Source: Pseudoruegeria sp. HB172150
GTDB taxonomy: Bacteria; Pseudomonadota; Alphaproteobacteria; Rhodobacterales; Rhodobacteraceae
DNA length: 64,000 nt
NCBI RefSeq assembly: GCF_013184805.1
Contig: NZ_JAATNG010000004.1
Span: 62,001-126,000 of the forward strand
Direction: 5' to 3'
Of this stretch, positions 44,913 to 63,848 are shown one piece after another; the stretch's first letter is position 1, and every line of letters begins with the position of its first letter. Position numbers and translations under genes: made by a program. The notes under the pieces are model-generated. The model was not told the origin of the DNA and did no database searches. It saw nothing but the letters and a program-made list of their open reading frames with translations.

Positions 44913-44935
44913 ATTCATGAAGTTATTATATGAAT
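44913..44935. promoter_or_regulatory. LysR-type operator between the TRAP operon and its regulator
   Basis: ATTCAT-N11-ATGAAT is a perfect 6-bp dyad with the T-N11-A core of LysR-family sites. It lies in a strongly AT-rich gap of about 120 bases. It covers the first possible ATG of the regulator, which favours the later start at 44942. Confidence 0.55.
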
Positions 44936-44941
44936 GGTGCC

Positions 44942-46816: not shown

Positions 46817-47677
46817 ATGGATATCCGTGATCTCGAAACCTTCCTGGCCGTCGTCAACGAAGGAGGCATCACGCGCGCGTCGGAAAAGCTGGGGCGCGTG
46901 CAGTCCAGCATCACCGCGCGGGTAAAGCAGCTGGAAGCGGAGCTGGGCCAGCCGCTGTTCATTCGCGAGGGGCGGGGGATGCATGTCGCGCCCGCGGGCA
47001 AGACGCTGATGCGTTACGCCGAGCGGCTGCTGGCGCTGGCCGACGAGGCCCGCGGCGCGGTGCAGTCGCCGGGGCTGGCCGGGCCGTTCCGGCTGGGCGC
47101 GATGGAGAGTACGGCGGCGGTGCGGCTGCCGCCGGTGATCACCGAACTGCACCGGCTGTATCCCGAGATCGACCTGACCCTGACGACGGGTAACCCGGTT
47201 CAGCTGAGCCAGGCGATCCTGCAGGACGAGATTGACGCCGCCTTTTTCGCCGGGCCGCTGGCGGATACGCGGCTGGCCGGGGAGCCGGCCTTCGAAGAGC
47301 CGCTGGTGCTGATCGGGCCAGCGGACGGCGCGGATATTTCCGCCGTCACGCCGCCGAGCGAGCCGATCATCGTGTTCGAGAACGGATGCCCGCATCGCCG
47401 CCAGCTGGAAGGCTGGTTCGCGGCGACCGGGGTTCTGCCGCGGAAGGTGATCGAACTGGGATCCTATCACGCCATGTTCGGCACGGTCGTGGCCGGGATG
47501 GGTCTGGCGCTGATGCCGGAGAGCGTGCTGGCGGCGTTTCCGGACAGGTCCGGCATCAAGGTGCACCGGCTGGACGGGCTGACCGCGTCGCTGACGACCT
47601 ACCTTGTCTGGCGGCGGGGCGGGGAAACCCCGGCGCTGCGGCGGCTGTCGGAGCTGATCGCCGCGCGGCGCGGGTGA
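46817..47677 (+). CDS. LysR-family transcriptional regulator
   Basis: A 286-residue LTTR. The DNA-binding domain reads MDIRDLETFLAVVNEGGITRASEKLGRVQSSITARVKQLEAELG, followed by the effector domain from residue about 85. It is close to the CysB/NodD-like short forms without special features. It diverges from the globin/small-gene group (gap of about 170 bases with an AT-rich stretch with repeats of GAATGAAT), so it may control them. It also ends 7 bases from the end of a converging ABC permease gene. Confidence 0.88.
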   Translation: MDIRDLETFLAVVNEGGITRASEKLGRVQSSITARVKQLEAELGQPLFIREGRGMHVAPAGKTLMRYAERLLALADEARGAVQSPGLAGPFRLGAMESTAAVRLPPVITELHRLYPEIDLTLTTGNPVQLSQAILQDEIDAAFFAGPLADTRLAGEPAFEEPLVLIGPADGADISAVTPPSEPIIVFENGCPHRRQLEGWFAATGVLPRKVIELGSYHAMFGTVVAGMGLALMPESVLAAFPDRSGIKVHRLDGLTASLTTYLVWRRGGETPALRRLSELIAARRG

Positions 47678-47684
47678 GCGCGGA

Positions 47685-48584
47685 TCAGCGGGTCAAGTCG
47701 GACCGGCGCTGGCGGTTCTCGAACCACGAGAAGAACCGCGACAGGGCGAAGCAGAGGACGAAGTAGAACAGCGCGACGGTGATGTATGTCTCGAACCGGC
47801 GGTTGGAGGACACCGCGATTTCGGTGCCGACGAAGGTGAGTTCCGTTACCGAGATCAGCGAGACGATCGAGCTGTCCTTGACCAGCATGATGAACTGGTT
47901 CGCCAGCGGCGGCGTCACGGCGCGCAGGGCCTGCGGGAAGACGACCAGCCGGAATATCTGGAAAGGCCGCAGCCCGAGGCTTTCGGCCGCCTCTATCTGG
48001 GCGCGGGGGACGGATTCAATACCGGTGCGGACGATGACGGCGATATAGGCCGCCTCGAACATCGCGAGGCTGATGACGCCGGCGATGAAATTTTCCAGCC
48101 GTTGCGGTGATCCGGCAAGGAAGCCGACCACGTTTTCGCCGCTGGGGCCGAGATTTCGGGCCCAGGCGTCGATTCCGAGGAGCGGAATGATCTGCGACGA
48201 AACGAAGAAGTAGAAGACGAACAGGAAGACCAGCGGCGGCACGTTCCGGATCAGCCCGACATAGGCGGTGCTGGTGAGCCGTGGCAGCAGCCGTTGCCTG
48301 CTGGCGAGGATGCCAAGGACGAGGCCAAGCGTGCTGGCGATCAGCATGGCCCAGACCGACAGGCGGATCGTGGTCAGCAGCCCTTCGAGCAGAAGGTTCG
48401 GCTCCCAGCGGCCGGTTTCGGCGTTCGGGCGGACGAGGGCGCGGGGCAGGTAGGACCAGTCCCACTTGTAGACCAGCACGTCCGACACCCGGTGCGAGAT
48501 GTAGAAGACAAAGGCCAGCACGGCACCGATGATCAGCAGATCGAGGATGCCGAAGCGGGTCTTGCGGTCTGGATCCGGGTACAT
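47685..48584 (-). CDS. Polar amino-acid ABC permease (HisM/GltK family), system 1
   Basis: A 299-residue membrane protein with five or six helices. The N-terminal half has a long extra periplasmic segment; the permease core shows GLIRNVPPLVFLFVFYFFV near residue 110, and the ATPase-contacting EAA loop ESLGLRPFQIFRLVVFPQALR near 205. It is the last gene of the unit permease - binding protein - permease, which has no ATPase. A GC hairpin lies between it and the binding-protein gene. Confidence 0.9.
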   Translation of the reverse strand: MYPDPDRKTRFGILDLLIIGAVLAFVFYISHRVSDVLVYKWDWSYLPRALVRPNAETGRWEPNLLLEGLLTTIRLSVWAMLIASTLGLVLGILASRQRLLPRLTSTAYVGLIRNVPPLVFLFVFYFFVSSQIIPLLGIDAWARNLGPSGENVVGFLAGSPQRLENFIAGVISLAMFEAAYIAVIVRTGIESVPRAQIEAAESLGLRPFQIFRLVVFPQALRAVTPPLANQFIMLVKDSSIVSLISVTELTFVGTEIAVSSNRRFETYITVALFYFVLCFALSRFFSWFENRQRRSDLTR

Positions 48585-48607
48585 GCCGTGCCTTGTCCGG
48601 GTTGGGG

Positions 48608-48630
48608 GACGGGGCGCGAGACGCCCCGTC
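48608..48630 (-). terminator. Intercistronic hairpin after the binding-protein gene
   Basis: GACGGGGCG and CGCCCCGTC form a perfect 9-bp stem with loop CGAGA between the binding-protein stop and the next permease. It may be partial termination or mRNA protection to give more binding protein than permease. Confidence 0.5.
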
Positions 48631-48638
48631 CGGCGGCC

Positions 48639-49472
48639 TTACTCGGGGACCTGATCGGCCCAGGGGCGGCCGTCGAACCAGAAGCTGTGACGCTCCTGCA
48701 GCCAGCCGTCATTGGTGCGGTACCGGATCCAGTTGTTGAAGAAGTTCAGCGCGTCCGGGTCGCCCTTGCGCACGGCGAAGGCGGAATCGGCCGGCGAAAT
48801 CAACTCGTCGGTCGGGGAATATACGACTTCGGGGTTGTCATAGATCGTGAAGGCCGGAAGCGGCTGTGACGACAGCATGACCTCGGCATTGCCGTTCAGG
48901 ACTTCCTGCACGGTCTGGGCCTGGTCGTCGAACAGGCGCAGGGTCGCTTTCGGGAAGTGCACCTTGATGTAGTCGCAGGGCGTCGCGCCGCGGCGGCAGG
49001 AGAAGGTGACGTCGGTCGAATTGTAGTCGTCGGGCCAGACCATGCCTTCTGTCAGCTCGATATGCGACATGACTCCGAAGGAGGATTTCGCGTAGGGCTC
49101 GGTGAAGTTGACGGTCAGGTTGCGCTGCATGGTGATCGACATGCCGCCGATGATGACGTCGAAGTTGCCGGCGATCAGCGCTGGGATGATGCCGTCCCAC
49201 GCGGTGGGAATGAATTCGACTTCGACGCCCATGTCCTCGGCCAGTTTCTTGGCGACGTCGATCTCGAAGCCGATGAGGTCGCCGTCCTTGTCGCGCATCG
49301 CCCAGGGCACGAAGGTGGCCATGCCGACCTTCAGCGCGCCGCGGCGCTTGATGGTCTCGATCACGCTGTCCTGCGCGATGGCCTGTTGCGTGTCCTGCGC
49401 CTGCACGCGCTGGGCGCCGACGACGCTCAGCGCCGCGGCGGCGGCGAGGATCATGTTTCTGAGGTATTTCAT
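48639..49472 (-). CDS. Periplasmic amino-acid-binding protein (SBP family 3), system 1
   Basis: A 277-residue SBP. A signal peptide (MILAAAAALSVVGAQRVQAQ) precedes the family 3 signature RGALKVGMATFVPWAMRDKDGDLIGFEIDVAKKLAEDMGVEVEFI. Two Cys (SCRRGATPCDY near residue 155) may form a disulfide. Ligand type is unclear; a polar amino acid or a similar nitrogen compound is likely. It is the middle gene of the operon. Confidence 0.9.
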   Translation of the reverse strand: MKYLRNMILAAAAALSVVGAQRVQAQDTQQAIAQDSVIETIKRRGALKVGMATFVPWAMRDKDGDLIGFEIDVAKKLAEDMGVEVEFIPTAWDGIIPALIAGNFDVIIGGMSITMQRNLTVNFTEPYAKSSFGVMSHIELTEGMVWPDDYNSTDVTFSCRRGATPCDYIKVHFPKATLRLFDDQAQTVQEVLNGNAEVMLSSQPLPAFTIYDNPEVVYSPTDELISPADSAFAVRKGDPDALNFFNNWIRYRTNDGWLQERHSFWFDGRPWADQVPE

Positions 49473-49509
49473 CTGGTGTCTCCTGTTGGGTTCGTTCTGT
49501 TTTTTGGTG

Positions 49510-50358
49510 TCAGTTGCGCCACGACCGGCGCACGCGCCGTTCCATCCAGGAAGCGACGGCGGAGAGGCTGATCGTCAGGACGAGGTACATCGCCGCGACG
49601 GTCAGCCAGACCTCGAATGTCATGAAGGTGTCGGCGATCACGTTCCGGCCCTCGTTGGTCAGGTCGAAGACCGCGATGGTCGAGACGATGGCGGACGCCT
49701 TCACGAGATTGACGAGTGAGGAGGTAAGCGGCGGCAGCATCAGGGGGACGGCCTGGGGCAGCACGACCTTCTGGTAGGTCGCGCGCGCGCCGAGACCGAG
49801 GGAGGAGGCCGCCTCCCACTGCGGTTTCGGCACCGACAGGATGCCGCCGCGGATGATTTCCGAGATGAAGGATGCCTCGAAGAAGGCGAGGCAGAGGACG
49901 CCGGTCCAGAACCGTTCGATCCCGAGGATCGGGGAGAGGACGAAATAGAACAGGTACATCTGCACCAGAAGCGGCGTGTTGCGGATCGCTTCGAGATAGA
50001 TGGTGGAGAGCCAGCGGCCGGAGAACGAGCGCGACAGGCGCAGCAGCGCGACCGTGAGGCCGATGGTGAAGGCAAGGATGGCGGCCCAGAGGGTGACCTG
50101 CAGGGTGACGATCAGGCCGCGCACCAGCGGACCCCAGATCAGTTCACCGTCGATGACGCGGTAGAAATACTGCGGGATGCGATACCATTGCCAATTGTAG
50201 TGCATCGCATCGGCACCGCGCAGGACGCCCCAGAGGATGACCGCCGCGCCGAAGAGAAAGACCGCCCAGTCCGACAGGTTGCGGCGCCTGAGGTGCAGGC
50301 GCGCCTTCGTTTCATAGAGCGCAAGGGCGCTGTCCCTGTCAGTGCCGATCTCGGTCAT
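49510..50358 (-). CDS. Polar amino-acid ABC permease, system 1 (first gene)
   Basis: A 282-residue membrane protein. Signature parts are EAIRNTPLLVQMYLFYFVL near residue 130 and the EAA loop AASSLGLGARATYQKVVLPQAVP near 205. The start at 50358 follows GGGGATG. It is the promoter-proximal gene of the unit and faces the regulator gene across 373 bases that hold a shared palindromic motif. The ATPase is missing here and might be supplied by the system 2 ATPase at 59815. Confidence 0.9.
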   Translation of the reverse strand: MTEIGTDRDSALALYETKARLHLRRRNLSDWAVFLFGAAVILWGVLRGADAMHYNWQWYRIPQYFYRVIDGELIWGPLVRGLIVTLQVTLWAAILAFTIGLTVALLRLSRSFSGRWLSTIYLEAIRNTPLLVQMYLFYFVLSPILGIERFWTGVLCLAFFEASFISEIIRGGILSVPKPQWEAASSLGLGARATYQKVVLPQAVPLMLPPLTSSLVNLVKASAIVSTIAVFDLTNEGRNVIADTFMTFEVWLTVAAMYLVLTISLSAVASWMERRVRRSWRN

Positions 50359-50731
50359 GGCATCCCCGACTTTCTGGCTCTTGGATAGGCCCGGCCGAAT
50401 CCGTTTCCCAGAGGAAGGCACAAATTCTCCTGTAGAGAAATTAATTTCCTCTCAGGATGCATCTTTTTTATGCGTTTCGCCCCTTCAACGGTGCCGGGCG
50501 AAAGGGTGGAAGGGTATCAGGCGCTGGGCGGCGGGTCGGTCTGGTTGTTATGAGGGACGGGTAACCAGGAATTTCGTATCCGTTTCGGAATGAACATTTC
50601 AGATACCCACTGCGGCGCGGCCACGGTGATTTGCCCGGATGCGAGGCAAAAGCGCATGGCTGTCATATCACGGAATGCCGTTCGCCGACGTGACCTTGTA
50701 TTTGCCCCGCCGATCGGTACTGACCTTTGAG
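50359..50731. promoter_or_regulatory. Divergent promoter region between ABC system 1 and the XRE-cupin regulator
   Basis: No gene can be supported in these 373 bases. The stretch 50420-50470 is AT-rich and contains a candidate operator; it should hold the promoters of the ABC unit and the regulator. Confidence 0.4.
50423..50450. promoter_or_regulatory. Candidate operator site B of the XRE-cupin regulon
   Basis: AATTCTCC-TGTA-GAGAAATT forms an imperfect dyad, followed by AATTTCCT. It matches site A (51353-51380) at about 19 of 28 positions by my hand alignment. Confidence 0.45.
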
Positions 50732-51352
50732 ATGCAGATAACGGACAATTCAGACATGCACGAAGACGCCCCGGCCAATACGCAGAAGCACAGCCTCGAC
50801 ATGCTGGTCGGGCTCGCGGTGCGCAACGCGCGCGCCCAGGCCGGGATGACCCTTGCCGAGCTTTCCGCGAAATCCGGGATCTCAACCCCGATGATCTCTA
50901 AGATCGAGCGCGGTCAGGTTTCCGCGTCGCTGAGTACGCTGAACGCCCTTGCGAGCGCGATGAACGTGCCGATCATCAATTTCTTCGCCGAAACGGTCGA
51001 GATCAACGAGGTCACGCTGGTCAAGGCCGGCGAAGGGGTCACGGTGCGACGGGCCGGGTCGACCTATGGCCACAGCTACAAGCAGCTTGGCCACGTTTCC
51101 AACGACAGTCAGGATCTGGAGAGCTACCTGATAACGCTGGAAGCGCCGGTGACCGGTACGCCGATCTTTCAGCATTCCGGCGTGGAACTGATGCATTTCA
51201 TCGAGGGCGAACTGTCCTACCGCATCGGCGACGAGGTCTACGACCTGACTGCCGGGGACACATTGTCCTTTGATGCAAGCGTTCCGCACGGACCGGTGCA
51301 TATCAATTCAGCACGCGCCCGGTTTCTGACGGTAATTTCCCGGCCGAGATAG
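50732..51352 (+). CDS. XRE-family transcriptional regulator with cupin domain
   Basis: A 206-residue regulator. The helix-turn-helix is around residues 24-78 (VRNARAQAGMTLAELSAKSGISTPMISKIERGQVSASLSTLNALA). The C-terminal cupin (about 130-200) has HSGVELMHFIEGELSYRIG and SVPHGPVH, with metal or effector contacts possible. Such XRE-cupin proteins (PuuR, SutR type) respond to small catabolic metabolites. It diverges from ABC system 1 and precedes the oxidation operon. Two starts are possible (50732, 50756), both with weak ribosome-binding sites. Confidence 0.88.
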   Translation: MQITDNSDMHEDAPANTQKHSLDMLVGLAVRNARAQAGMTLAELSAKSGISTPMISKIERGQVSASLSTLNALASAMNVPIINFFAETVEINEVTLVKAGEGVTVRRAGSTYGHSYKQLGHVSNDSQDLESYLITLEAPVTGTPIFQHSGVELMHFIEGELSYRIGDEVYDLTAGDTLSFDASVPHGPVHINSARARFLTVISRPR

Positions 51353-51380
51353 AATTTTCCCTTGAGGATAAAAATTTCCT
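51353..51380. promoter_or_regulatory. Candidate operator site A of the XRE-cupin regulon
   Basis: AATTTTCC-CTTGA-GGATAAAAATT is an imperfect dyad placed just after the regulator stop and 39 bases before the start of the oxidation operon. Its type recurs at sites B and C. Confidence 0.5.
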
Positions 51381-51418
51381 GACGGTATATGCGAGGAGAC
51401 ACGACGGAGGATCTCCTC

Positions 51419-52390
51419 ATGGCCGCACCCGTTCTGACACCGATCACACAGGCTCTGAATGACGGTGCCCTGACACGCAAAGAGCTGAAGGCGCTGATGC
51501 GTCGGTCTGACTGGCCGGCGGCGCGCCGGCTGGTGATATGGATCGCGGCGCTGTTGGTGACCGGCTCGATGATCTGGCTGAGCATGGGCACGTGGCTGGT
51601 CTGGCCGGCAATGTTCGTGCACGGGATCCTGATGGTGCACCATTTCTCGCTGCAGCACGAATGCGTCCACTATACCCCGTTCAAGACGCGATGGCTGAAC
51701 GACGTGGCCGGAAATATCTGCGGCTTCATCATCGCGCTGCCGCACCAGTATTTCCGCTATGAGCATTGCGATCACCACACCCACACGCAGCTGAAGGGGT
51801 ATGACCCGGAACTGATCGAGCTTCCGATCTCTGTGTGGAAATACCTGTGGTACATCTCTTCGGTTCCGTACTGGTGGGCGAAGATCAAGGAGTTCTCGCG
51901 CCACATCGCCGGGCACATGTCGGAGGGCGACAAGGTGTTCGTGCCGAAAGAGGCGTATCAGGCGGTGTTCTGGGAGGCGCGGATCATGGCCGGGCTTTAC
52001 GCCGCGATCCTGATCTTCTGCATCGCGACGGGGTGGTGGGCGCCGCTGTGGTACTGGTGGCTGCCGGTGCTGCTGGGCGAACCGGTGATGCGCTGGATCC
52101 GCCTGACCGAGCATGTGGGCCGCCCGAACGTGCGCGACATGCGGGAGAACACGCGCACCAACCTGATTTCCGCGCCGCTCGCCTTTCTGAGCTGGAACAT
52201 GAACTATCATGCGGAGCACCACTATGCCGCGTCGGTGCCGTTCCATGCGCTGCCCAAGCTGCACGAGAAGCTTGACGGCTACGTCTATGTCGAGCCGCGC
52301 GGATATCTGGGCGCACATATCGACATCATCTCGCAACTGATCGGCCGCAAGCCGCGCAGCGACATGCAGGGCGAGAGCGCCAAGGCATGA
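51419..52390 (+). CDS. Membrane di-iron hydroxylase, fatty-acid-desaturase/MocD-like
   Basis: A 323-residue membrane protein with histidine boxes of the desaturase/alkane-hydroxylase superfamily: HHFSLQHECVH near residue 75, HCDHHTHTQ near 117 and NYHAEHHYAASVPFH near 262. Four to six hydrophobic segments are visible. Membrane di-iron enzymes oxidise lipids, rings or methyl groups. The next gene encodes a MocE-like Rieske ferredoxin, so the pair resembles the rhizopine MocD/MocE, which remove an O-methyl group. GGAGG lies 8 bases before the ATG. Confidence 0.85.
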   Translation: MAAPVLTPITQALNDGALTRKELKALMRRSDWPAARRLVIWIAALLVTGSMIWLSMGTWLVWPAMFVHGILMVHHFSLQHECVHYTPFKTRWLNDVAGNICGFIIALPHQYFRYEHCDHHTHTQLKGYDPELIELPISVWKYLWYISSVPYWWAKIKEFSRHIAGHMSEGDKVFVPKEAYQAVFWEARIMAGLYAAILIFCIATGWWAPLWYWWLPVLLGEPVMRWIRLTEHVGRPNVRDMRENTRTNLISAPLAFLSWNMNYHAEHHYAASVPFHALPKLHEKLDGYVYVEPRGYLGAHIDIISQLIGRKPRSDMQGESAKA

Positions 52391-52713
52391 ATGCGCAGGG
52401 CCGGCAGAAGACCTGGCAGGACCTGATCGCGGTGGCGGATCTGGAACAGGGCGACGCCACGCCGGTCATGCTGGGACGCCGGGAACTGGCGGTCTTCGAT
52501 ACGGTCGACGGCATCTTCGTCAGCCTCGCGCGCTGTACCCACGGGGCGGCAAACCTGTGCGACGGCTATTTCGATGGCAGGCATATCGAGTGCCCGCTGC
52601 ATCAGGGCCTGTTCGACGCCCGTACCGGCCAGCCCAAGGCGGCGCCGGCGCGGGTGCCGCTAAGGATGGTCGAGTCGCGCGTCGTCGACGGACGCGTTCA
52701 GGTTTTGCTTTAG
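52387..52713 (+). CDS. Rieske [2Fe-2S] ferredoxin, MocE-like
   Basis: A 108-residue Rieske ferredoxin. The cluster ligands are in CTHGAANL near residue 50 and CPLHQG near 70 (C-x-H and C-x2-H). The length is that of free ferredoxins rather than of oxygenases. It overlaps the hydroxylase stop (ATGA) and should pass electrons to that enzyme; the flavin reductase (MocF-type) is not in the window. Confidence 0.92.
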   Translation: MNAQGRQKTWQDLIAVADLEQGDATPVMLGRRELAVFDTVDGIFVSLARCTHGAANLCDGYFDGRHIECPLHQGLFDARTGQPKAAPARVPLRMVESRVVDGRVQVLL

Positions 52714-52725
52714 GAGACGAGTGCC

Positions 52726-53310
52726 ATGTCCGCCTGGATCCGGATGATCCCCGATGAAGAGGCCGACCCGGCCCTGAAGGACGTGCTGGACCTTGCCCGC
52801 ACGCCGCACGGAACCGTCGACAATGTGATGCGGGTGCATTCGCTGCGGCCGAACACGATGAAGGGCCATGTGATCCTGTACCGCGCGGCGCTGCACGACG
52901 AGGCGAACACGATCCCGATGTGGCTGCAGGAGACGATCAGCTCTTACGTGTCGATCCTGAACAACTGCCCCTATTCACTGGCCAATCACTGGAAGAACGC
53001 GCGCCACCTGATCGGCGACGAGGAGCGCGCCGACGAGATCGGCGCGGCGCTGCAGGACGGGACGCCCGAGACGGTGTTCGAGGGGGCGGAGCTGGCGCTG
53101 ATGCGCTATGCGGAGCAGCTGACCTGCAAGCCGGGGAAGATGCGGAAGGCGGATGTGGACGCGCTGCGCGAGGCGGGGCTGGACGATGGCCAGATCCTCG
53201 AGGCGAACCAGATCATCGGGTATTTCAACTACGTGAACCGGCTGCTGAACGGGCTGGGCGTCACCACGGACGGCGATGTCGTGGGCTATTATGCCGAGGC
53301 CGAGGAATGA
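52726..53310 (+). CDS. AhpD-like / carboxymuconolactone decarboxylase-family protein
   Basis: A 194-residue protein of the peroxidase-related branch of the CMD/AhpD family. The core helices include TISSYVSILNNCPYSLANHWKNA (one Cys and the downstream His of the AhpD relay; the second Cys of CxxC is missing). The call rests on this pattern and the length. A role in handling peroxides or in a ring or lactone step is possible. It is third in the oxidation operon and overlaps the next gene by four bases (ATGA). Confidence 0.75.
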   Translation: MSAWIRMIPDEEADPALKDVLDLARTPHGTVDNVMRVHSLRPNTMKGHVILYRAALHDEANTIPMWLQETISSYVSILNNCPYSLANHWKNARHLIGDEERADEIGAALQDGTPETVFEGAELALMRYAEQLTCKPGKMRKADVDALREAGLDDGQILEANQIIGYFNYVNRLLNGLGVTTDGDVVGYYAEAEE

Positions 53311-54335
53311 CGGCGGCCCCGCTGTTCCAGGCGCCGGATTTCTCTGCCACGCGGATCCAGCCGGAGATCGACCTGGCTGCGCCGGGCAAGCGCAGCGGGC
53401 ATCTGGGGCTTCTGTGGTCGGACAATGCCAATCCGCTGGGCGTCTACCGGATTCCGGCGATGTGCATTGTCGGCGGGCCGGGGCCGACCGTGCTGCTGCT
53501 GGCCGGTGTGCACGGGGATGAATACGAGGGGCCGGTGGCGCTGACCCGGATGTATCAGGAGCTGGCGCCGGAAAAGGTTGCCGGGCGGCTGATCTTCCTG
53601 CCGATGCTGAACGGGCCCGCCTGCCAGGCGGGGACCCGGGTTTCGCCGCTGGACGGCGGCAACCTGAACCGCGCCTTTCCCGGCGATCCGGAGGGGCCGC
53701 CGACCCAGCAGATCGCGCATATGGTGTCGGCCTGCCTGCTGCCCGTGGCGGATGCGGTGATCGATCTGCATTCCGGCGGGCAGGCATCGTGGTTCGTGCC
53801 CTGCGCGCTGGCGGCGCGGGGGCGGGACGGGGCGCTGGACCCGGACAACATCAAGATGGCGCGCGCCTTCGGGACCGAGGTGGTCTGGGTGCTGGGCGCA
53901 GCGAACGACAGCCGGTCGGTGAACGGCGCGGCGACGGCGGCGGGCGTGCCCTGCATCGCGGCAGAGCTGGGCGGCGGCGGCGCGGTGGGCATCGACCCGC
54001 TGGACGCGGCCGAGACCGGCCTGTGCCGCACGCTGATCGAACTTGGCGTGGTGGAGGGCGAGCGGATCGCCCTGCCCGAGCCGCGGCTGGTCGAGCTGGC
54101 GCGGCCCGGGCATCGCGTGACCGCGCCGGAGACCGGGCTTTACCAGCCCGCGAAACAGGCCGGCGAGTCGGTGGGCGAGGGCGAGTGCCTGGGCTGGATC
54201 CTGTCGCCCGAGCGGCCGGAGGCGCCGCCGGTCGAGATCCTCGCCCGGACCTCGGGGCTTGTCCTTGCGGAGACGCGCCGCGCCAGGGTCGTGCCCGGAA
54301 GTTTCCTTGCATTCATCGCGTCGGACGTGGGCTGA
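53307..54335 (+). CDS. Aspartoacylase/succinylglutamate desuccinylase-family deacylase
   Basis: A 342-residue M14-like zinc deacylase. Zinc ligands are in GVHGDEYEGP near residue 70 (H-x2-E) and IDLHSGG near 155 (His); the catalytic Glu is likely in AAELGGGGAVG near 215. Members remove acyl groups from amino acids, for example in ectoine or N-acyl-aspartate breakdown. The N-acyl substrate is unknown. It overlaps the preceding CMD-like gene by ATGA. Confidence 0.85.
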   Translation: MTAAPLFQAPDFSATRIQPEIDLAAPGKRSGHLGLLWSDNANPLGVYRIPAMCIVGGPGPTVLLLAGVHGDEYEGPVALTRMYQELAPEKVAGRLIFLPMLNGPACQAGTRVSPLDGGNLNRAFPGDPEGPPTQQIAHMVSACLLPVADAVIDLHSGGQASWFVPCALAARGRDGALDPDNIKMARAFGTEVVWVLGAANDSRSVNGAATAAGVPCIAAELGGGGAVGIDPLDAAETGLCRTLIELGVVEGERIALPEPRLVELARPGHRVTAPETGLYQPAKQAGESVGEGECLGWILSPERPEAPPVEILARTSGLVLAETRRARVVPGSFLAFIASDVG

Positions 54336-54365
54336 CCCCGCCCGCCCACAGAAGGAGTAGAGCAG

Positions 54366-55331
54366 ATGAACTATGCCACCGCCCGCAAGACCGACGCCGA
54401 TGAGATACCGGTCATCGACATCACGGCGCTTCGCGACGGATCGGACCCGATGACGGTTGCCAAGGCGCTGCATGCGGCGTCGAAGGGGTTGGGTTTCATC
54501 TATGTTCGAGGCCACGGCATTCCGGATGCGGTGATCGACGGGGCGCGGGCCGCGGCTTACGAATTCTTCCATGCCGATCCGGACCTGAAGGAGAGCGTGC
54601 GCGTGTCGTCCAGCCATCGCGGCTGGCTGGGGCAGGGCGGCGCGAAGATGCAGGACGACGCCAAGGCCGACCTGAAGGAAAGCTTCATCTGGGGGTTCCA
54701 GGATGCGGACGGAGTGACGCCGGACGATCACCCGCTGCGCGGCGGCAACCGGTGGCCGGCGTTTCAGCCGGGTCTGGAAGAGGCCGCGATGGCCTATTTC
54801 ACCCATGCCCACGAGGTGGCGCATCACCTGATGCGCGGCTTTGCGATGGGGCTGGACCTGCCGGAGGATTTCTTTCTGAAGAGCGCCGACAAGCCGCTGT
54901 CACGCTGCTCCTTCGTCTATTACCCGCCGCAGGATGCCTCGCTGGGCGAGGATCAGTTCGGCGTCGGGCCGCATACGGATTTCGGCGTGCTGACCGTGCT
55001 GTGCCAGGACGATGTGGGCGGCCTGCAGGTCGAGGATGTGAACGGCGAGTGGATCGAGGCGCCTCCGATCGCGGGCACGCTGCTGGTCAATGTCGCCGAT
55101 CTGCTGGCGCGGTGGACGGACGGGGAATACAAGTCCACGCCGCACCGGGTGGTGAACGCGTCGGGACGCGAGCGGATGTCGCTGGTTCTGGCCTTCGATC
55201 CCAACCCGGAAACCATGATCGACGCCAGCGAGGTCTTCGGCGACGGGTATCGGCCGGCCAACGAGCCGATCACCTGCGGGGATTACCTGATATGGCGCTT
55301 CGGCAAGGCGTTCGCCTACCGGAAGGCGTGA
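54366..55331 (+). CDS. 2-oxoglutarate/Fe(II) oxygenase, isopenicillin-N-synthase family
   Basis: A 321-residue jelly-roll oxygenase. The N-terminal DIOX_N part has IPVIDITALRDG and GFIYVRGHGIPD; the iron site H-x-D...H is in GPHTDFGVLTVL near residue 200 and TPHRVVNASGRERMSLVLAFDPN near 255, with the R-x-S that binds 2-oxoglutarate. Such enzymes hydroxylate, demethylate or desaturate small molecules. It follows the deacylase by 30 bases with an AGGAG site. Confidence 0.9.
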   Translation: MNYATARKTDADEIPVIDITALRDGSDPMTVAKALHAASKGLGFIYVRGHGIPDAVIDGARAAAYEFFHADPDLKESVRVSSSHRGWLGQGGAKMQDDAKADLKESFIWGFQDADGVTPDDHPLRGGNRWPAFQPGLEEAAMAYFTHAHEVAHHLMRGFAMGLDLPEDFFLKSADKPLSRCSFVYYPPQDASLGEDQFGVGPHTDFGVLTVLCQDDVGGLQVEDVNGEWIEAPPIAGTLLVNVADLLARWTDGEYKSTPHRVVNASGRERMSLVLAFDPNPETMIDASEVFGDGYRPANEPITCGDYLIWRFGKAFAYRKA

Positions 55332-55334
55332 TGC

Positions 55335-56402
55335 ATGTTCGGTGAATCCGGGTCAGACGCCAAGCTGCTGTCGGAAGCAGCGCGCAACCTGCTGTTCGAT
55401 TGCGCCGGGCTGAGTGCCGGGGACGAGGTCGTGATCTGCCACGAGGCGGCGGAGCACGGGTGGTACGATTTCGAAGCGGCCGAGAGCGTTGCGACCGAAG
55501 CGGAGGCGTTGGGTCTGCGGGTACGCAGGTGCGAGGCGTTGCCGCCGGACCGGGAGCAGCCGGCGGAGGTGGCGGAGCTGCTGACCTCGCCGGGCAACAT
55601 CATCTTTTTCGCGCGTATCGGCGATCAGGGGCGGTTCGACGGGCTGGCGAAAGGGCGGCGGGTGATGGTCTATGCACGGAACGCCAACGATCTTGCGTCC
55701 GAGTTCGGACGTGTCCCGCATCAGGCAATGCTGGGCCTGAAGAAGGCCGTGGACGAAGTTCTGTTCACGGCCCGGACCATCGAGATCACCTGCCCGAACG
55801 GCACACGCGTTACAGGCCGTGCGCCCGTCGCCAGCGACACCGGCGAGACGCCCGCCGACGTCACCACGCGGCGGTTTCCGCTGGGCGTGCCTGCACCGGT
55901 GCCCGCGAACGGGTTCAGCGGACGCGTGGCGCTGACCGGCGCGCTGACGCCCACCGGGAACCGGTGTTACGAGCCTGCCGTGCTGCCGCTGGAACATCCC
56001 GTGTTCGGGCTGGTGGAGAATGGTCGGATTGCCGGGTTCGAGGGTGATGCCGCCGAAATCGTGCGGATCAGGGCGCATTACCAGGCGGTTGCGGATGCAT
56101 TCGGGATCGAGCCGTTCGTGGTCCATAGCTGGCATGCGGGGATTCATCCCGGCTGCCGCTATTTCGACGCCACCGGGCAGGACCTCGACTATTGGTCGAA
56201 CACGGTCTTTTCCAGTCCGCGCCTGCTGCATTTTCATACCTGCGGCACGTCGGCGCCGGGGGAGATCAGCTGGAACCTTCCTGATGCGACCGTTCTGGTC
56301 GACGGTGTAGCGCTTTGGGACAAGGGCCGGTTGATGCCGCAGGCGTTTCCGGCGCTTTCCGAGAGCCTGTCGAAGGCACCGTCGCTGGCACGGCTCTTCT
56401 GA
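55335..56402 (+). CDS. Distant M29-aminopeptidase / 2,5-dihydroxypyridine-dioxygenase-like protein
   Basis: A 355-residue protein I cannot assign with confidence. It has the alpha/beta pattern of M29-type proteins: N-terminal ARNLLFDCAGLSAGDEVVICHEAA, central FSGRVALTGALTPTGNR, and C-terminal FVVHSWHAGIHPG and LLHFHTCGTSAPGEISWNLPDATVLVDG. From memory these blocks recall both leucyl aminopeptidase M29 and NicX-type ring-cleaving dioxygenases. The His-x-Asp pair I remember from NicX is not seen here, so the activity is open. It is the last gene of the oxidation operon, 3 bases after the oxygenase. Confidence 0.5.
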   Translation: MFGESGSDAKLLSEAARNLLFDCAGLSAGDEVVICHEAAEHGWYDFEAAESVATEAEALGLRVRRCEALPPDREQPAEVAELLTSPGNIIFFARIGDQGRFDGLAKGRRVMVYARNANDLASEFGRVPHQAMLGLKKAVDEVLFTARTIEITCPNGTRVTGRAPVASDTGETPADVTTRRFPLGVPAPVPANGFSGRVALTGALTPTGNRCYEPAVLPLEHPVFGLVENGRIAGFEGDAAEIVRIRAHYQAVADAFGIEPFVVHSWHAGIHPGCRYFDATGQDLDYWSNTVFSSPRLLHFHTCGTSAPGEISWNLPDATVLVDGVALWDKGRLMPQAFPALSESLSKAPSLARLF

Positions 56403-56406
56403 CGCT

Positions 56407-57780
56407 TCAGAGGTCGAAGATCTTTCCCGGATTCATGATGCCGGCCGGATCGAGCGCTCGCTTGACCGCCCGCATCGCCGGCAGCGTGTCCGGATGCTCG
56501 GCCCGAAGGTAGCGCTTTTTTCCCATCCCGATGCCATGCTCGCCGCTGCAGGTTCCGCCAAGCTCCAGTGACAGCGCGACCATCCGGTCGTGGATTTCGG
56601 TGGCCGCCTGCAGTTCCCCGGGCTGTGCGGGATCGCAGAGAAACATGGCGTGGAAATTGCCGTCGCCGACATGGCCGCAGATATGCGCGTCGAGCCCCGC
56701 CGCGTCGATCCAGGCACGGGTCCGGTCGATCGCCTCGGCGAGTTTCGAGATCGGCACGCAGAGGTCGGTGGACAGGGTTTCGCATCCCGGATTTGACCGG
56801 CGCGAGGCATGCACCGCGCCATGGCGCATCCGCCAGAGCGCGGCGGCCTCTCCGGGCAGGTCGCAGGGCTTTTCGGCTACGGCACCGTTCGCGCGGGCGA
56901 CTTCGGCGAGAACCGCGATCTCTTCGGTGACGGCGGCGTCGGTACCGGCGATCTCGATCAGCAGCGATGGCGCTATGGGCAGATCGAGGTCGGATTCCGC
57001 AAGGCAGGCAGCCATCTGCGCCGTGTCCATAAGCTCGATGCGGGTCGGTTGCGCCCCACATTGCAGCGCCTCGATCACGGTTGTGACCGCGCTGGCGATG
57101 TCGGGAAAGCTGACCTGATAGGAGCGGCTGATTTCCGGGCGCGGCTGCAGCCGAAGGGTCAGGGCGGTGATTACCGCGAGCGTGCCTTCGGACCCGACCA
57201 GAAGATGCGTCAGGTCGTAGCCCGCGGCGCTTTTCCGGGCGCGGTTTCCGGTGCGGAGGATCGAGCCGTCCGGCAGCACCGCCTCGACCGACAGCACCGC
57301 GTCCCGCATCGTGCCGTAGCGGATGGTCGTGGTACCGGAGGCACGGGTCGAGGCCATGCCGCCGAGCGTCGCGTTGGCGCCGGGATCTACCGGGAAGAAC
57401 AGGCCGGTATCGCGCAGGTGGTCGTTCAGGGCCTCGCGGGTGACGCCGGCCTGCACCTCGGCGATCATGTCGCCGGGAGACACGTCGAGGATCGCGGCCA
57501 TGCGGGTCATGTCGAGGGCGATGCCGCCCTCGACGGCGAGCACCTGCCCCTCGACCGAGCTGCCCGCGCCGAAGGGGATGACCGGGCAGCGCGCCCCGGC
57601 GCAGCGGGGGAGCAGTTCGGCGATTTCCTGTGCCGTCTCCGGCCAGAGAACGGCATCGGGCAGGGCCGGCGGGAAATGCCCGGATTCGTCGCGGCCATGC
57701 AGTTCGCGCACCGATGTGCCGGTGCCGAACCGCGCGCCGAAGCGGGTCTGGCACCAGCCGAATAGCTCTTCGCGGGTCAT
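56407..57780 (-). CDS. FAD-linked 2-hydroxyacid dehydrogenase (GlcD / D-lactate dehydrogenase type)
   Basis: A 457-residue flavoprotein of the PCMH/VAO family. The FAD-binding part has CPVIPFGAGSSVEGQVLA near residue 66 and GLFFPVDPGANATLGGM near 125; the C-terminal domain ends with TCSGEHGIGMGKKRYL near 415. It oxidises D-2-hydroxy acids and gives electrons to quinone or cytochrome c. It is the third gene of the binding-protein operon, 4 bases after the aminotransferase. Confidence 0.88.
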   Translation of the reverse strand: MTREELFGWCQTRFGARFGTGTSVRELHGRDESGHFPPALPDAVLWPETAQEIAELLPRCAGARCPVIPFGAGSSVEGQVLAVEGGIALDMTRMAAILDVSPGDMIAEVQAGVTREALNDHLRDTGLFFPVDPGANATLGGMASTRASGTTTIRYGTMRDAVLSVEAVLPDGSILRTGNRARKSAAGYDLTHLLVGSEGTLAVITALTLRLQPRPEISRSYQVSFPDIASAVTTVIEALQCGAQPTRIELMDTAQMAACLAESDLDLPIAPSLLIEIAGTDAAVTEEIAVLAEVARANGAVAEKPCDLPGEAAALWRMRHGAVHASRRSNPGCETLSTDLCVPISKLAEAIDRTRAWIDAAGLDAHICGHVGDGNFHAMFLCDPAQPGELQAATEIHDRMVALSLELGGTCSGEHGIGMGKKRYLRAEHPDTLPAMRAVKRALDPAGIMNPGKIFDL

Positions 57781-57784
57781 CGGG

Positions 57785-58891
57785 TCAGGTCAGCGCGTCC
57801 AGCACCAGATCCATCTGCGCATCGGTGCCGATGCTGATCCGGATGCAGGGCTCGTCCCCGTGAACGCGCGACGGGCGGATGAGCAGGCCCCTGGCGATCA
57901 GCGCCGCGACGGCGTCGTCATAGCTCATCGGCGCGCCCTCGCTTCGCAGCAGGAAGAAATTGCCGGCTGGCTCCGGGACGCGCCAGCCGGCTGCGCGCAA
58001 CGCCGTCACCACCCGGCTACGGGTCGCGCGGATGGTAGCCACGCTGGCGCGCATGGTGTCGCCGTCTTCCAGCGCCGCGATGCCGCCGGCGATGCCGGGC
58101 ACGGACAGCGGGAAGGTCGGGCGGATCTTGAGGAGGGCTTCCATGATGGGTGGCGCGCCGATGCACCAGCCGATGCGCAGGCCGGCGAGGCCGAAGGCTT
58201 TGGAGAACGTGCGCTGGACGACGACGTTTTCCTTTTCCGCCGCCAGCCGCAGGCCGGTGTCGCCGATGTCGCTGAACTCGGCATAGGCCTCGTCCAGCAC
58301 CAGCAGCGCGTCGGGGGGCACGACTTTGTAGAGCTCGCGCACGACTTCGGGCGGGGTCATGACGCCGGTCGGGTTGCCGGGATTGTCGAGATAGACCATG
58401 CGCGTGCGCGGTGTGATCGCGCGGGCGAGCGCGGCGGGGTCGACGGCGAAGTCGTTTTCCTTGTGGCGCGGCACCTCGACGGGGACGGATCCCTGCCCGA
58501 TGGCGTAGGTGCGGAATTTCGGGAAGGAGTCGGTGAAATAGAGGCCCTCCTCTCCACGCCCGAGATAGGCGCGCATCAGGAAGGGCAGCAGCGAATCCGA
58601 GCCGGTGGAGGTGACGATCCGGTCGGCAGGAAGGTTCCAGAATTTCGCCAGCGCGTCGCCCAGGGCGGTGGCGTTGCTTTCGGGGTAAAGGTGGATGTCG
58701 TCCACCGCGTCGCGGATCGCTTTCTTGACCTTTTCGCCGGGGCCGTAGGGGTTCTCGTTCGAGGACAGCTTGATGGGGTTTTCCACCCCATCGGCCTGCG
58801 ATGCGCCCTGAATGTAGGGCGGGACATCCATGATGCCCGCGACCGGAACCGGGCGTGCCGGTTCCGGACGGAGATCGTCTGCGGGGCTCAC
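57785..58891 (-). CDS. HisC-type PLP aminotransferase
   Basis: A 368-residue class I/II aminotransferase. It contains LSSNENPYGP near residue 40, the PLP pocket YLDNPGNPTG near 175, DEAYAEF near 207, and the Lys in QRTFSKAFGLAGLRIGW near 238. It resembles histidinol-phosphate aminotransferase but lies far from his genes, so a catabolic amine or amino-acid substrate is likely. GTG at 58891 overlaps the binding-protein stop (GTGA) and gives translational coupling; ATG 58833 is an alternative. Confidence 0.85.
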   Translation of the reverse strand: MSPADDLRPEPARPVPVAGIMDVPPYIQGASQADGVENPIKLSSNENPYGPGEKVKKAIRDAVDDIHLYPESNATALGDALAKFWNLPADRIVTSTGSDSLLPFLMRAYLGRGEEGLYFTDSFPKFRTYAIGQGSVPVEVPRHKENDFAVDPAALARAITPRTRMVYLDNPGNPTGVMTPPEVVRELYKVVPPDALLVLDEAYAEFSDIGDTGLRLAAEKENVVVQRTFSKAFGLAGLRIGWCIGAPPIMEALLKIRPTFPLSVPGIAGGIAALEDGDTMRASVATIRATRSRVVTALRAAGWRVPEPAGNFFLLRSEGAPMSYDDAVAALIARGLLIRPSRVHGDEPCIRISIGTDAQMDLVLDALT

Positions 58892-59658
58892 AGCTTCCAC
58901 TTCGCTTTCAGGTCTTCGAAGAAGCCGCGGCGTTTCTTCAGTTCGATCCAGGTGTTGATGTAGTTGATCCAGACCTGATCGTCCTGGGCCATCAGCATGG
59001 CGATCTGCGACGGCTGGCGCGGATCGGTGTTGGGGACGCGCACGACGGGGAAGTTTTCCATCAGTGTGGAGCCCTCGATGTTCGAGGTCACGAAGACGTC
59101 GGCACGGCCGGACAGAACTTCCTGATAGCCGCGGGCGGGTGCTTCGATGACGGTGATCTCGGCTTCGGGGAACCACTGCTTGACCAGCGGCTCGAAGGAG
59201 GTACCGAGCGTCGTGGCGACCTTCACGCCGGACTTGTTGATCGAGTCCCAGCCGTCGAAGTCCGCTTCCTTGTCCTCGGTGGTGAAGGGGTACATCACCG
59301 CTTCGAGATAGACGTTGGAGAAGGCGGCCACCTTCATCCGGGCCGGCAGGATCGAGGCGGAGCCTGTCAGGTTGTAGTTTCCGGCGACGACGCCGTTGAC
59401 CAGCGTCTTCCAGTCGGTCGGGACGAATTCGACCTCGACGCCGAGATCGCTGGCCAGTTCGTTCATCACGTCGATGTCGAATCCCTTGTAGGAATTCGTC
59501 GCCGGGTCGCGCACGCTCATCGGGTTCCAGTCGCCCGTGGTGCCGACCTTCAGCACGCCGGAATCGAGTATTTCGTTCAGCGCCGATTGCGCGCTGACGG
59601 GTCCGACGAGCCCGAGGAGGACCGCGGCGGAAATCAAAACTGCATATAATTTGCGCAT
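58888..59658 (-). CDS. Periplasmic amino-acid-binding protein (SBP family 3), system 2
   Basis: A 256-residue SBP with signal peptide (LYAVLISAAVLLGLVGPVSAQ) and the family start SGVLKVGTTGDWNPMSVRDPATNSYKGFDIDVMNELASDLGVEVEFV. Its ligand cannot be named. It is the first gene of the minus-strand operon with the aminotransferase and the FAD dehydrogenase, and diverges from its ATPase and permease. The ATG at 59658 follows AGAGGAAG. Confidence 0.9.
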   Translation of the reverse strand: MRKLYAVLISAAVLLGLVGPVSAQSALNEILDSGVLKVGTTGDWNPMSVRDPATNSYKGFDIDVMNELASDLGVEVEFVPTDWKTLVNGVVAGNYNLTGSASILPARMKVAAFSNVYLEAVMYPFTTEDKEADFDGWDSINKSGVKVATTLGTSFEPLVKQWFPEAEITVIEAPARGYQEVLSGRADVFVTSNIEGSTLMENFPVVRVPNTDPRQPSQIAMLMAQDDQVWINYINTWIELKKRRGFFEDLKAKWKL

Positions 59659-59758
59659 TTCGTTTCTTCCTCTCTGTTGAAGAGCCTGGAGCACCCGAAT
59701 TGCCGGTCTGGCGTGACTTCCGAGGCGGTATGGGATTGATCAAACGGCCTAGCCCCGT

Positions 59759-59784
59759 AAATTCCAAGGAAAAAATTCTACTGA
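59759..59784. promoter_or_regulatory. Candidate operator site C of the XRE-cupin regulon
   Basis: AAATTCC-AA-GGAAAAAATT is an imperfect dyad in the divergent promoter between the binding protein (59658, minus) and the ATPase (59815, plus). It shares GGA-A5-ATT and a following CTGA with site A. Confidence 0.45.
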
Positions 59785-59814
59785 CAGTTAAAATCGGGAA
59801 CAGGGTGCCAGCCA

Positions 59815-60555
59815 ATGCAGCAAGCTGCGATAGAATTAGTCGGCGTGAATAAGTGGTTCGACAGCTTCCACGTGCTGAAGGACATCGACCTGACGGTCGC
59901 GCCGGGGGAAAAGATCGTGGTTTGCGGTCCGTCGGGGTCTGGAAAGTCGACGATGGTGCGCTGCATCAACCGGCTGGAGCGGCATCAGTCCGGGACCATT
60001 CGGATCGACGGCATCGAGCTGGAGGGCGAGGGGCGCAACGTGCGCACCGCACTGGCCGAGATCGGCATGGTGTTCCAGCAGTTCAACCTGTTTCCGCACC
60101 TGTCGGTTCTGGAAAACCTGATGCTCGGCCCGCTGAAGGTGCGCGGCAAGTCGCGGGCGGAGGCGGAGCAGATCGCGCGCCGCTACCTCGATCGCGTTCA
60201 TATTCCCGAGCAGGCAGACAAGTATCCCGGCCAGCTGTCCGGGGGGCAGCAGCAGCGGGTCGCCATAGCGCGGTCGCTATGCATGGAGCCGCGGATCATG
60301 CTGTTCGACGAGCCGACCTCGGCGCTGGACCCCGAGATGATCTCGGAGGTGCTGGATGTCATGGTGGAGCTTGCCGCCGAGGGGATGACGATGATCGTCG
60401 TCACCCACGAGATGGGCTTTGCCCGGAAGGTGGCGGACCGGATGATATTCATGGACCGCGGCGAGATCGTGGAGAGCAACCCGCCCGGCCCGTTCTTCAG
60501 CGCCCCGGAATCCGAGCGCTGCCGCGCCTTCCTCGACCGCATCCTGCAACACTGA
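59815..60555 (+). CDS. Polar amino-acid ABC ATPase, system 2
   Basis: A 246-residue GltL/GlnQ-type ATPase. Walker A is GPSGSGKST near residue 40, the Q-loop [19 protein letters not shown] near 85, the signature [15 protein letters not shown] near 140, Walker [15 protein letters not shown] near 160 and VVTHEMGFA near 195. It is the only ATPase of the family in this region and may serve both transport systems. The start codon has only a weak ribosome-binding site. Confidence 0.92.
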
Positions 60556-60562
60556 GATCCTC

Positions 60563-61321
60563 ATGAAACGCTTCCTTGTCGCCGCCGGCCTGCTGCTTTT
60601 GCTGTCTGGCTGTTCCTCTTCCACGGCCTGGGGCTGGTACGTGATCGATCCCAGCACCGAACGTGGCCGCATCAACCTGCAGTTCCTGATCAGCGGTTTC
60701 GGCAACACGATTCTGCTGTCGGTCATCGCCGCGGTGATGTCGATGTTCCTCGGCCTGATCGTGGCGCTGCCGGGATTGTCGGATCAGCGGGGCTGGCGCT
60801 GGGCGAACCGGGTCTACGTGGAATTCATCCGCGCGATCCCGCTGCTGCCGATGCTGTTCTGGGTGTTCTATGGGCTGCCCGTGGTGCTGAAATCGATGGG
60901 CATCAAGGTGTCCATCGATCCGTTCTGGGGCGCGATCATCACGCTGGCGCTGGCGGACAGCGCCTTTACCGCCGAGATCTACCGCGCCGGCATCCAGTCC
61001 ATTGCGCGCGGTCAGCGCGAGGCGGCGCAGACTATCGGGCTGAACCGGGCGCAGACCATGCGTTACGTGATCCTGCCGCAGGCGATCCGGCGGATCCTGC
61101 CGCCGCTGGCGAACCAGTTCATCTATATCGTGAAGATGTCCGCCTTTGCCTCTGTCATCGGGATGCAGGAACTGACGCGGCGCGCCAATGAACTGGTGGT
61201 GACGGAATACCGGCCGCTGGAGATCTACACCTTCCTGATCCTCGAATACCTTGTGCTGGTGCTGGTGATCAGCCAGGCGGTGCGCTGGCTGGAAAACCGG
61301 ATGCGGGTGGACGAGCGGTAG
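60563..61321 (+). CDS. Polar amino-acid ABC permease, system 2, with lipobox-like N-terminus
   Basis: A 252-residue HisM/GlnP-type permease. The core shows EFIRAIPLLPMLFWVFYGLP near residue 90 and the EAA loop AAQTIGLNRAQTMRYVILPQAIR near 155. Oddly, its N-terminus (FLVAAGLLLLLSGCSSS) looks like a lipoprotein signal with the lipobox LSGC. Whether it is cleaved is unknown. It follows the ATPase by 7 bases. Confidence 0.9.
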   Translation: MKRFLVAAGLLLLLSGCSSSTAWGWYVIDPSTERGRINLQFLISGFGNTILLSVIAAVMSMFLGLIVALPGLSDQRGWRWANRVYVEFIRAIPLLPMLFWVFYGLPVVLKSMGIKVSIDPFWGAIITLALADSAFTAEIYRAGIQSIARGQREAAQTIGLNRAQTMRYVILPQAIRRILPPLANQFIYIVKMSAFASVIGMQELTRRANELVVTEYRPLEIYTFLILEYLVLVLVISQAVRWLENRMRVDER

Positions 61322-63620: not shown

Positions 63621-63848
63621 TGTGCTCTTTCCGATATGCCGACCCGCGCCAGGGGACAGAGGGCGGAACGACCTTTCCACATTGTGCCGCGCCGCGCGGG
63701 CGGATGCCAGCGGATGAGCGTGGGATGTTCTGGTTTCTCTGCGGCCCGCAAAGGACTTGCGCGCGAGTGATTAATTCAACGCCGCCAATGCGTTCCCTTC
63801 GCGCCCGCCGGAACGAGATCGGGATTGTAAATCAGGCTGAAACCGCCG
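63621..63848. other. Intergenic stretch between bisC and the tRNA
   Basis: About 230 bases without a supportable gene; the frames present are shadows with no ribosome-binding site. The bisC promoter should lie here. Confidence 0.4.

Follow-up and report, generated by a model that had tools for sequence, protein, structure and literature searches.

The locus considered here, at positions 47685-61321 of a 64,000-nucleotide stretch of DNA from Pseudoruegeria sp. HB172150 (the window; contig C16, 62001-126000, of the 5.06-Mb genome G000; contigs, genomes and loci are referred to by our own C, G and L numbers), is a real, conserved catabolic system with an uncharacterised enzyme family at its centre. 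We put the probability at about one half that it is a regulated island for the catabolism of an N-methylated N-heteroaromatic zwitterion, the imidazole or histidine type being the likeliest; this substrate, the individual reactions and their order are what we infer. A preliminary description of the sequence had named an XRE-cupin regulator, two SBP3-type uptake sets, a MocD-like membrane hydroxylase with its MocE-like Rieske ferredoxin, an AhpD-like protein, a deacylase, an IPNS-like oxygenase, an M29-like protein, a HisC-like aminotransferase and an FAD-dependent oxidoreductase. Each of these genes is present, about where it had been placed (Table 1).

The central enzyme is the protein labelled M29-like in the preliminary description. 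The gene exists as described, but the label finds no Pfam peptidase match: none of 28 aligned members reaches the cut-off of any Pfam family, no peptidase family appears at E values up to 5, and the sole Pfam match of the window's protein is DUF3830 (E 0.026). The predicted structure (pLDDT 88.1, pTM 0.88) is closest to NicX, which occupies ranks 1-3 of the Foldseek matches (E from 8.4e-15, for 7cn3, to 7e-14; TM 0.61-0.63; root-mean-square deviation (rmsd) 6.3-6.4); M29 aminopeptidases follow at 5.3e-10 and weaker. The M29 peptidase was set aside as first-choice reading because NicX tops the fold matches and no Pfam peptidase family was found. As described in passages of PMC7910607, NicX binds Fe(II) via His265, Ser302, His318 and Asp320 and cleaves the ring of 2,5-dihydroxypyridine between C5 and C6 to give N-formylmaleamate. 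In the M29-like proteins (alignment A1, with 27 of the 29 fetched relatives; L012, which has an in-frame stop, and L030 were left out), the invariant residues are H264, H267, H271, H299, H301, C303 and E310, and the histidines fall in the stretches HSWHAGIHPG and HFHTCG. If the last histidine pair corresponds to His318-x-Asp320 of NicX, a histidine would replace the carboxylate ligand. A ring-opening-type metalloenzyme appears to be a better reading of this protein than a peptidase.

The M29-like protein is closely coupled to an oxygenase. All 36 other genomes with a full-length M29-like protein carry either a Rieske oxygenase (c2), beside the M29-like gene or elsewhere, or an IPNS-like 2-oxoglutarate (2OG)-Fe(II) oxygenase. 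Among the 67 loci (of 82) kept for pair tests, from which loci shorter than 9,000 bases or lacking M29, c2, IPNS and MocD were left out, the two oxygenases never share a locus (11 with IPNS, 43 with c2). No c2 was found in the window's genome (best match E 2.2e-4 over 48 residues), where the oxygenase is of the IPNS type only; five other genomes have a close IPNS relative, four of them without c2 and one (G215) with both. The window's enzyme, which has DIOX_N and 2OG-FeII_Oxy domains and in the sequence of which HxD (203-205) and H260 are present, occupies the place held by c2 in relatives. In a tree of 48 M29-like proteins, built with a quick method, the 7 IPNS-partnered and 38 c2-partnered rows are split with 2 partner changes, compared with a mean of 6.6 under shuffling (0 of 500 shuffles as low as 2). 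No oxygenase label was assigned to L067, L070 and L147, and L080 is represented by a 22% fragment; for five rows the c2 label comes from a gene at another place in the genome, and G215, which also has a c2 elsewhere, was counted as IPNS. The tree groups the window with its nearest relative, L032, and, at 98% SH-aLRT, with M29-like proteins of other alphaproteobacterial families. The simplest reading is that the oxygenase would make the substrate of the M29-like protein.

The neighbourhood of the M29-like gene is conserved. A search at E values up to 1e-3 across 295 genomes of the same family, the window's included, found the protein in 41, at full length in 37 (weak or partial matches in G065, G082, G128 and G281 are excluded from the latter count). 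From the 36 other genomes, 40 loci (L032-L071) were taken out of the 42 full-length places that exist besides the window's (the second copies of G233 and G200 were omitted, the latter being covered later by L123). They were compared with 24 control regions of 14-20 kb, 20 of them elsewhere in the study genomes (18 in M29 genomes) and four on the window's contig, two of which make up the first 40 kb of the window. Recurrent neighbours in the 40 loci are c2 (31), a GcvA-type LysR regulator (22), AhpD (18), MocE (15), MocD, the XRE-cupin regulator and SBP2 (14 each), SBP1 (13), a creatininase-like protein (11), and the sarcosine-oxidase-like soxA (10) and soxB (9), and each of these is absent from all controls. 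DoeB-like, at the threshold used, and IPNS-like genes stand beside the M29-like gene in two loci each, GlcD in one (L032) and a HisC-like gene in three, a label that also reaches threshold in one control. Because GlcD and HisC so rarely recur, the transamination and acid-oxidation steps of the preliminary description look like local additions; as essential steps they were rejected, both genes recurring together in one relative only. The preliminary description had also made its regulon depend on co-occurrence of the units in related genomes, and the core does co-occur: close MocD orthologs (at least 58% identity) are found in 22 of the 294 other genomes, and 18 of these 22 have a full-length M29-like protein, compared with 18 of the remaining 272.

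The conserved set is nevertheless modular, so that of the single regulon proposed initially there remains a gene set with a shared operator type rather than one fixed unit. In the 67 loci the creatininase-like gene is accompanied by SBP2 in 19 of 20 cases, the GST gene GST20 by the creatininase-like gene in 12 of 12, and MocD by SBP1 in 14 of 24. SBP1 thus tends toward MocD/MocE and SBP2 toward the creatininase-like protein and GST, both of which are missing from the window's locus. The DoeB-like deacylase occurs in 7 of the 82 loci; that it replaces the creatininase-like protein is unsupported, the two never occurring together, yet with a p value of 0.094. Of all loci read, two (the window and L058) combine both binding proteins in one region, and G279 has them in overlapping regions (L088 and L042). 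L032 holds SBP2, ATPase, permease, HisC, GlcD, M29, IPNS, AhpD, MocE, MocD and regulator together, at 63-91% identity, and lacks SBP1 and DoeB; a second place in the same genome (L119) has SBP1, c2, a HisC-like and a DoeB-like gene. The parts are split between two places there, and the window therefore joins what that genome keeps apart. Named plasmid records with an M29-like gene number 12 (Leisingera 5, Ruegeria 4, Paracoccus 1, Alisedimentitalea 1, "Rhodobacteraceae bacterium" 1). A second M29-like subfamily, about 30% identical (L062-L065, L075), occurs with AhpD and a Rieske oxygenase; its loci partly carry sox-like genes, GST and a dipeptide-type ATP-binding cassette (ABC) transporter, and MttB-like genes lie near some of them.

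Beyond the family, a phylum-wide search of 397 other genomes yielded three with the M29-like protein, each again from the same family, and a scan of genome contigs with it gave just one partial match, at 28%. A restriction to one family was overturned by compact M29 operons in other families, found via SBP2, which is present in 25 of 376 genomes of the class. The 19 SBP2 regions examined, which exclude five genomes with weaker matches and a second copy, contain M29 in four (L147, L148, L149, L151), IPNS in six and a creatininase-like gene in eight. The compact version in other alphaproteobacterial families is represented by L148, L149 and L151; in L149 it reads ATPase-permease-AhpD-IPNS-XRE-M29, with divergent SBP2 and creatininase-like genes.

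As a lead, the shared operator type noted initially was borne out. We derived a motif from the SBP2/ATPase promoter regions of 15 relatives, leaving out the window and its nearest relative; it matches three intergenic regions of the locus, i.e., 59757-59792, 51351-51389 and, with lower scores, 50424-50457. With the 18-mer form, the best site in the window is at 59761, the overlapping 59760 is second and 51351 third. With the 22-mer form, 51351 ranks first, 51368 second, 59757 fifth and 50424 sixth; the third and fourth ranks are held by 12517 and 4634, which lie outside the locus and outscore the SBP2/ATPase and perm2-upstream sites. The XRE-cupin protein presumably pairs with this operator, through which it would act.

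Clues to the substrate come from the relatives. Histidine-utilisation (hut) genes lie near the pathway genes in 6 of the 40 M29 loci (L036, L045, L048, L055, L058, with hutC only, and L062), in 2 of 11 MocD/IPNS loci (L083 and L088) and in none of the 24 controls. They were also found in the later-read L120, L122, L125, L146 and L151, which brings the total to 11 genomes (L083 and L125 belong to one genome, as do L120 and L146). The chance of hut genes in 6 of 40 loci, estimated from genome size at 28 kb of 4.2 Mb per locus, is P = 2.8e-7, a value that ignores relatedness and the fact that hut had caught our attention beforehand. A search of eight linked genomes (G014, G294 and G932 lay outside it) showed that in six the linked hutH is the only close one; G040 has a second copy at 44%, and G270 has hutH elsewhere. 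For hutI, hutF, hutG, hutH and hutC the labels are based on NCBIfam cut-offs applied to a single representative of each; hutU was labelled from its position and start sequence.

The binding proteins and demethylase-type companions add to this picture. The nearest solved relative of SBP1 is 9e2b (48% identity), with L-tryptophan bound. That of SBP2 is SAR11_1068 (E 1.3e-71), a binding protein of the cyclohexadienyl-dehydratase lineage, the structure of which (5kkw) contains N-methylpiperidinium sulfobetaine; it comes from another organism, and we take it to be the same as Pelagibacter Pu1068. Passages of PMC7683729 give the natural ligand of Pu1068 as unidentified as of 2020, which later work may have changed. 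Solved relatives of c2 (one representative) include the dicamba O-demethylase DdmC and the methylxanthine N1-demethylase NdmA. The soxA- and soxB-like proteins (one each, from L046) fall below their curated cut-offs (1129.4 vs 1164 and 492.6 vs 529.45 bits). In two small (1.2-1.3 Mb) alphaproteobacterial genomes (L158 4284-10934 and L161 4048-10800), an SBP2 ortholog and a permease lie directly downstream of soxB/soxD/soxA-like genes, an adjacency that gives a hint as to what SAR11_1068-type proteins bind; in L159, from a third genome of this kind, SBP2 and a permease stand in a stretch that, as far as read, has no sox genes. Elsewhere in the window's genome, on contig C1 (L097 7413-13000), a further pair of sox-like genes lies next to a distant homolog of MocD (33%). 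Together, the hut linkage, the relatives of the binding proteins, the sox-like genes and the demethylase relatives of c2 point to an N-methylated heteroaromatic zwitterion, for which the linkage to hut genes makes an imidazole or histidine type the preferred one. A betaine-like compound or methylated N-heterocycle, the substrate class suggested at the outset, agrees with the demethylase-type neighbours and the NicX-type fold, and with the relatives of the binding proteins that hold a sulfobetaine and tryptophan.

A pathway may be pictured as follows. Two SBP3-type ABC systems would take up the compound, the ring of which would be hydroxylated or demethylated by the 2OG enzyme and MocD/MocE (in relatives, by the Rieske oxygenase related to DdmC and NdmA). 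The M29-like metalloenzyme with its NicX fold would then open the oxygenated ring, with a probable N-formyl or N-acyl product, to be cleaved by an amidohydrolase (DoeB-like here, creatininase-like with GST elsewhere). Where present, the sarcosine-oxidase-like complex would strip the remaining N-methyl groups, and carbon and nitrogen would enter histidine/glutamate catabolism near glutamate. The import and oxidative attack of the preliminary description are supported by this gene content; as reactions, they too are proposals.

Several observations weigh against this interpretation. The likeness to NicX is distant (12-13% identity, TM about 0.6, rmsd about 6.4); the 28-member profile found no match among PDB sequences at E values up to 10, and a single-sequence search of PDB sequences was also unproductive; and the HxD ligand pair of NicX would be HxH here, with no serine ligand located. 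Recurrence in these loci was the reason for choosing the neighbour families, those of hut among them, and the reference proteins were drawn from the same loci; this choice favours the comparison and, because the genomes are related, the p values of the neighbour counts are too small. Four of the 22 close-MocD genomes (G136, G090, G224, G209) and two of the five close-IPNS genomes (G036, G083) have no M29 match, and the M29-like protein is therefore not indispensable. The single other sampled genome of the window's genus is without M29, MocD and IPNS. The window's locus itself contains no c2, sox, GST20 or creatininase-like gene, and in the rest of its genome the best creatininase-like match is 42% over 140 amino acids and the best sox homologs (46% and 42%) lie elsewhere. 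Taken one by one, the hut genes do not reach significance (best p 0.086), the genome's own hut operon is on another contig, and an operator search of its hut and sox loci gave no strong match at the hut operon. The solved relative of SBP1 binds tryptophan, not histidine. Lastly, about half of the 19 SBP2 regions have no oxygenase, M29 or creatininase-like gene, so that SBP2 on its own need not mean that the pathway is present.

In the main rival reading, which we consider unlikely, the core would instead serve a homarine- or trigonelline-type compound (an N-methylpyridinium carboxylate). Oxygenation would be followed by NicX-type cleavage beside the ring nitrogen to an N-formyl-N-methyl product, then by isomerisation and deformylation to N-methylglutamate, which the sarcosine-oxidase-like complex would demethylate as an N-methylglutamate dehydrogenase. 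NicX-type chemistry would yield such an N-formyl product, and, because the scanned soxA- and soxB-like proteins fall below the curated cut-offs, another N-methyl substrate is plausible for them. The sulfobetaine in 5kkw is also an N-methylated ring, so that, with the NicX chemistry, a homarine type would suit equally; SBP2 orthologs stand beside soxB/D/A in L158 and L161, although not in L159. Such a route does not predict the linkage to hutH or hutU found in ten genomes, the tryptophan bound by the relative of SBP1 speaks against it, L158 has no oxygenase or M29 gene near SBP2, and no paper on such an operon was among the open-licence literature matches listed. A homarine operon has reportedly been described with five enzyme genes and a regulator.

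Less probable again is that the units are independent neighbours brought together by chance or by regulation. The two amino-acid transporters, the MocD/MocE hydroxylase and the M29/oxygenase pair would then act on different substrates. The separability of the SBP1/MocDE and SBP2/creatininase/GST modules, the rarity of regions with both binding proteins (the window and L058, with overlapping regions in G279) and the many SBP2 regions without the other genes would be expected in that case. Yet both modules have c2, M29, AhpD, sox and XRE partners as well as hut linkage, in different genomes, and the operator type is common to the units. We give still less credence to the M29-like protein as a hydrolase or peptidase in a locus that degrades an N-acylated amino acid or dipeptide, e.g., N-acetyl- or beta-alanyl-histidine. 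The DoeB-like deacylase in 7 of 82 loci, the dipeptide-type ABC genes at loci of the related subfamily (M29b) and the second place of M29 peptidases by fold would agree with that assignment; the lack of a Pfam peptidase match in all 28 members, the His-rich invariant residues and the close coupling to an oxygenase disagree with it.

Among described systems, none with this gene set was found in the open-licence literature matches listed, which is weak evidence of absence, and nothing matching was among those listed on homarine, methylhistidine and ergothioneine catabolism and MocD. MocD and MocE are proteins of rhizopine catabolism, with which the locus shares an FA-desaturase-type hydroxylase gene followed by a Rieske ferredoxin gene; in contrast, the ferredoxin scores 61.1 bits against the TIGR02377 cut-off of 136.15, and the partners here are M29, the oxygenase and amino-acid-type transporters. 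A DoeB-like deacylase together with SBP3 transporters is also a feature of ectoine degradation (DoeB, EhuB), but the deacylase reaches 199.9 of the 402.7 bits of TIGR02994, SBP1 58.6 of the 190.9 of EhuB, and there is no M24-type ectoine hydrolase among the scanned proteins. NicX, the 2,5-dihydroxypyridine 5,6-dioxygenase of the nicotinate pathway, likewise stands among oxidative genes, whereas no scanned gene of the locus was recognised as another nicotinate-pathway gene. The hut pathway is physically linked in 11 other genomes (one with hutC alone), although not in the locus itself.

Table 1. Features of the locus, with positions in the window
Feature	Position	Strand	Basis
ABC permease perm1, transporter 1	47685..48584	-	PF00528; recurs with SBP1 in relatives
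SBP1, SBP3-type binding protein (SBP_bac_3), transporter 1	48639..49472	-	Profile match; nearest solved relative 9e2b
ABC permease perm2, transporter 1	49510..50421	-	PF00528
Operator-like inverted repeat upstream of perm2	50428..50457		15+15, 73% complementary
XRE-cupin regulator	50639..51352	+	PF01381 (HTH_3), PF07883 (Cupin_2); 14/40 relatives
Operator-like site preceding MocD	51351..51389		Relatives' motif
MocD-like membrane hydroxylase (FA_desaturase)	51389..52390	+	PF00487; near-invariant His clusters
Rieske ferredoxin, MocE-like, presumed electron donor	52387..52713	+	PF00355
AhpD/CMD-like peroxidase-related protein	52726..53310	+	TIGR01926, 93.1 vs cut-off 81.8
AstE/AspA-type deacylase, DoeB-like	53307..54335	+	PF24827; TIGR02994 under cut-off
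IPNS-like 2OG-Fe(II) oxygenase	54366..55331	+	PF03171/PF14226
M29-like protein, NicX fold type	55335..56402	+	Predicted structure; invariant His-rich residues
GlcD/D-lactate-dehydrogenase-like FAD oxidoreductase, accessory	56407..57780	-	PF01565/PF02913
HisC-like aminotransferase, accessory, start approximate	57785..58843	-	PF00155; TIGR01141, 267.0 bits vs cut-off 276.55
SBP2, second SBP3-type binding protein (SBP_bac_3)	58888..59694	-	Nearest solved relative SAR11_1068 (5kkw)
Operator-like site, divergent SBP2/ATPase promoter region	59757..59792		Relatives' motif
ABC ATPase, transporter 2	59815..60555	+	PF00005
ABC permease perm3, transporter 2	60563..61321	+	PF00528

Some features call for comment. 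The XRE-cupin protein probably starts downstream of the beginning of its open reading frame, and the MocD-like hydroxylase possibly at 51419. The AhpD-like protein has a single near-invariant Cys81, and the CxxC pair is absent, as judged from conservation across relatives. Of the two uptake sets described initially, both are present, but they have one ATPase between them: transporter 1 consists of a binding protein and two permeases without an ATPase, whereas in transporter 2 a binding protein and a single permease are joined by the sole ATPase of the locus. To the left of the locus lie two LysR-type regulators (44930-45841, plus strand, and 46817-47677, plus strand), the second of which has weak matches only (23-29%) in M29 neighbourhoods, and a globin-family gene (PF00042; 46076-46498, minus strand). 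To the right are a molybdopterin oxidoreductase (61329-63680, minus strand), which is convergent with perm3 and not beside the set in L032, and, 2.6 kb from the locus, tRNA-Thr(CGT) (63880-63955, minus strand).

A wider proposal, which we advance tentatively and regard as doubtful, is that several alphaproteobacterial families share a new pathway for the ring opening and demethylation of an N-methylated imidazole or a related heteroaromatic zwitterion. Its NicX-fold dioxygenase would represent a new class, with a His-rich site and no Pfam family, and would receive its substrate from one or the other of two unrelated oxygenases; the orphan SAR11_1068-type binding proteins would find their missing ligand in the same compound class. 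If the homarine operon referred to above has these genes, the core is known already, and what is new is limited to the window's variant, i.e., the IPNS type with MocD/MocE, DoeB, HisC, GlcD and two transporters. Methylated nitrogen compounds make up a large share of what marine bacteria take up from plankton and animals, and many of the degradation routes are unassigned. For these, the cluster gives a defined gene set and an uncharacterised family of enzymes whose proposed ring opening can be put to the test, offers a clean case of one oxygenase type replacing another, and suggests a concrete ligand class for an orphan SAR11 binding protein.

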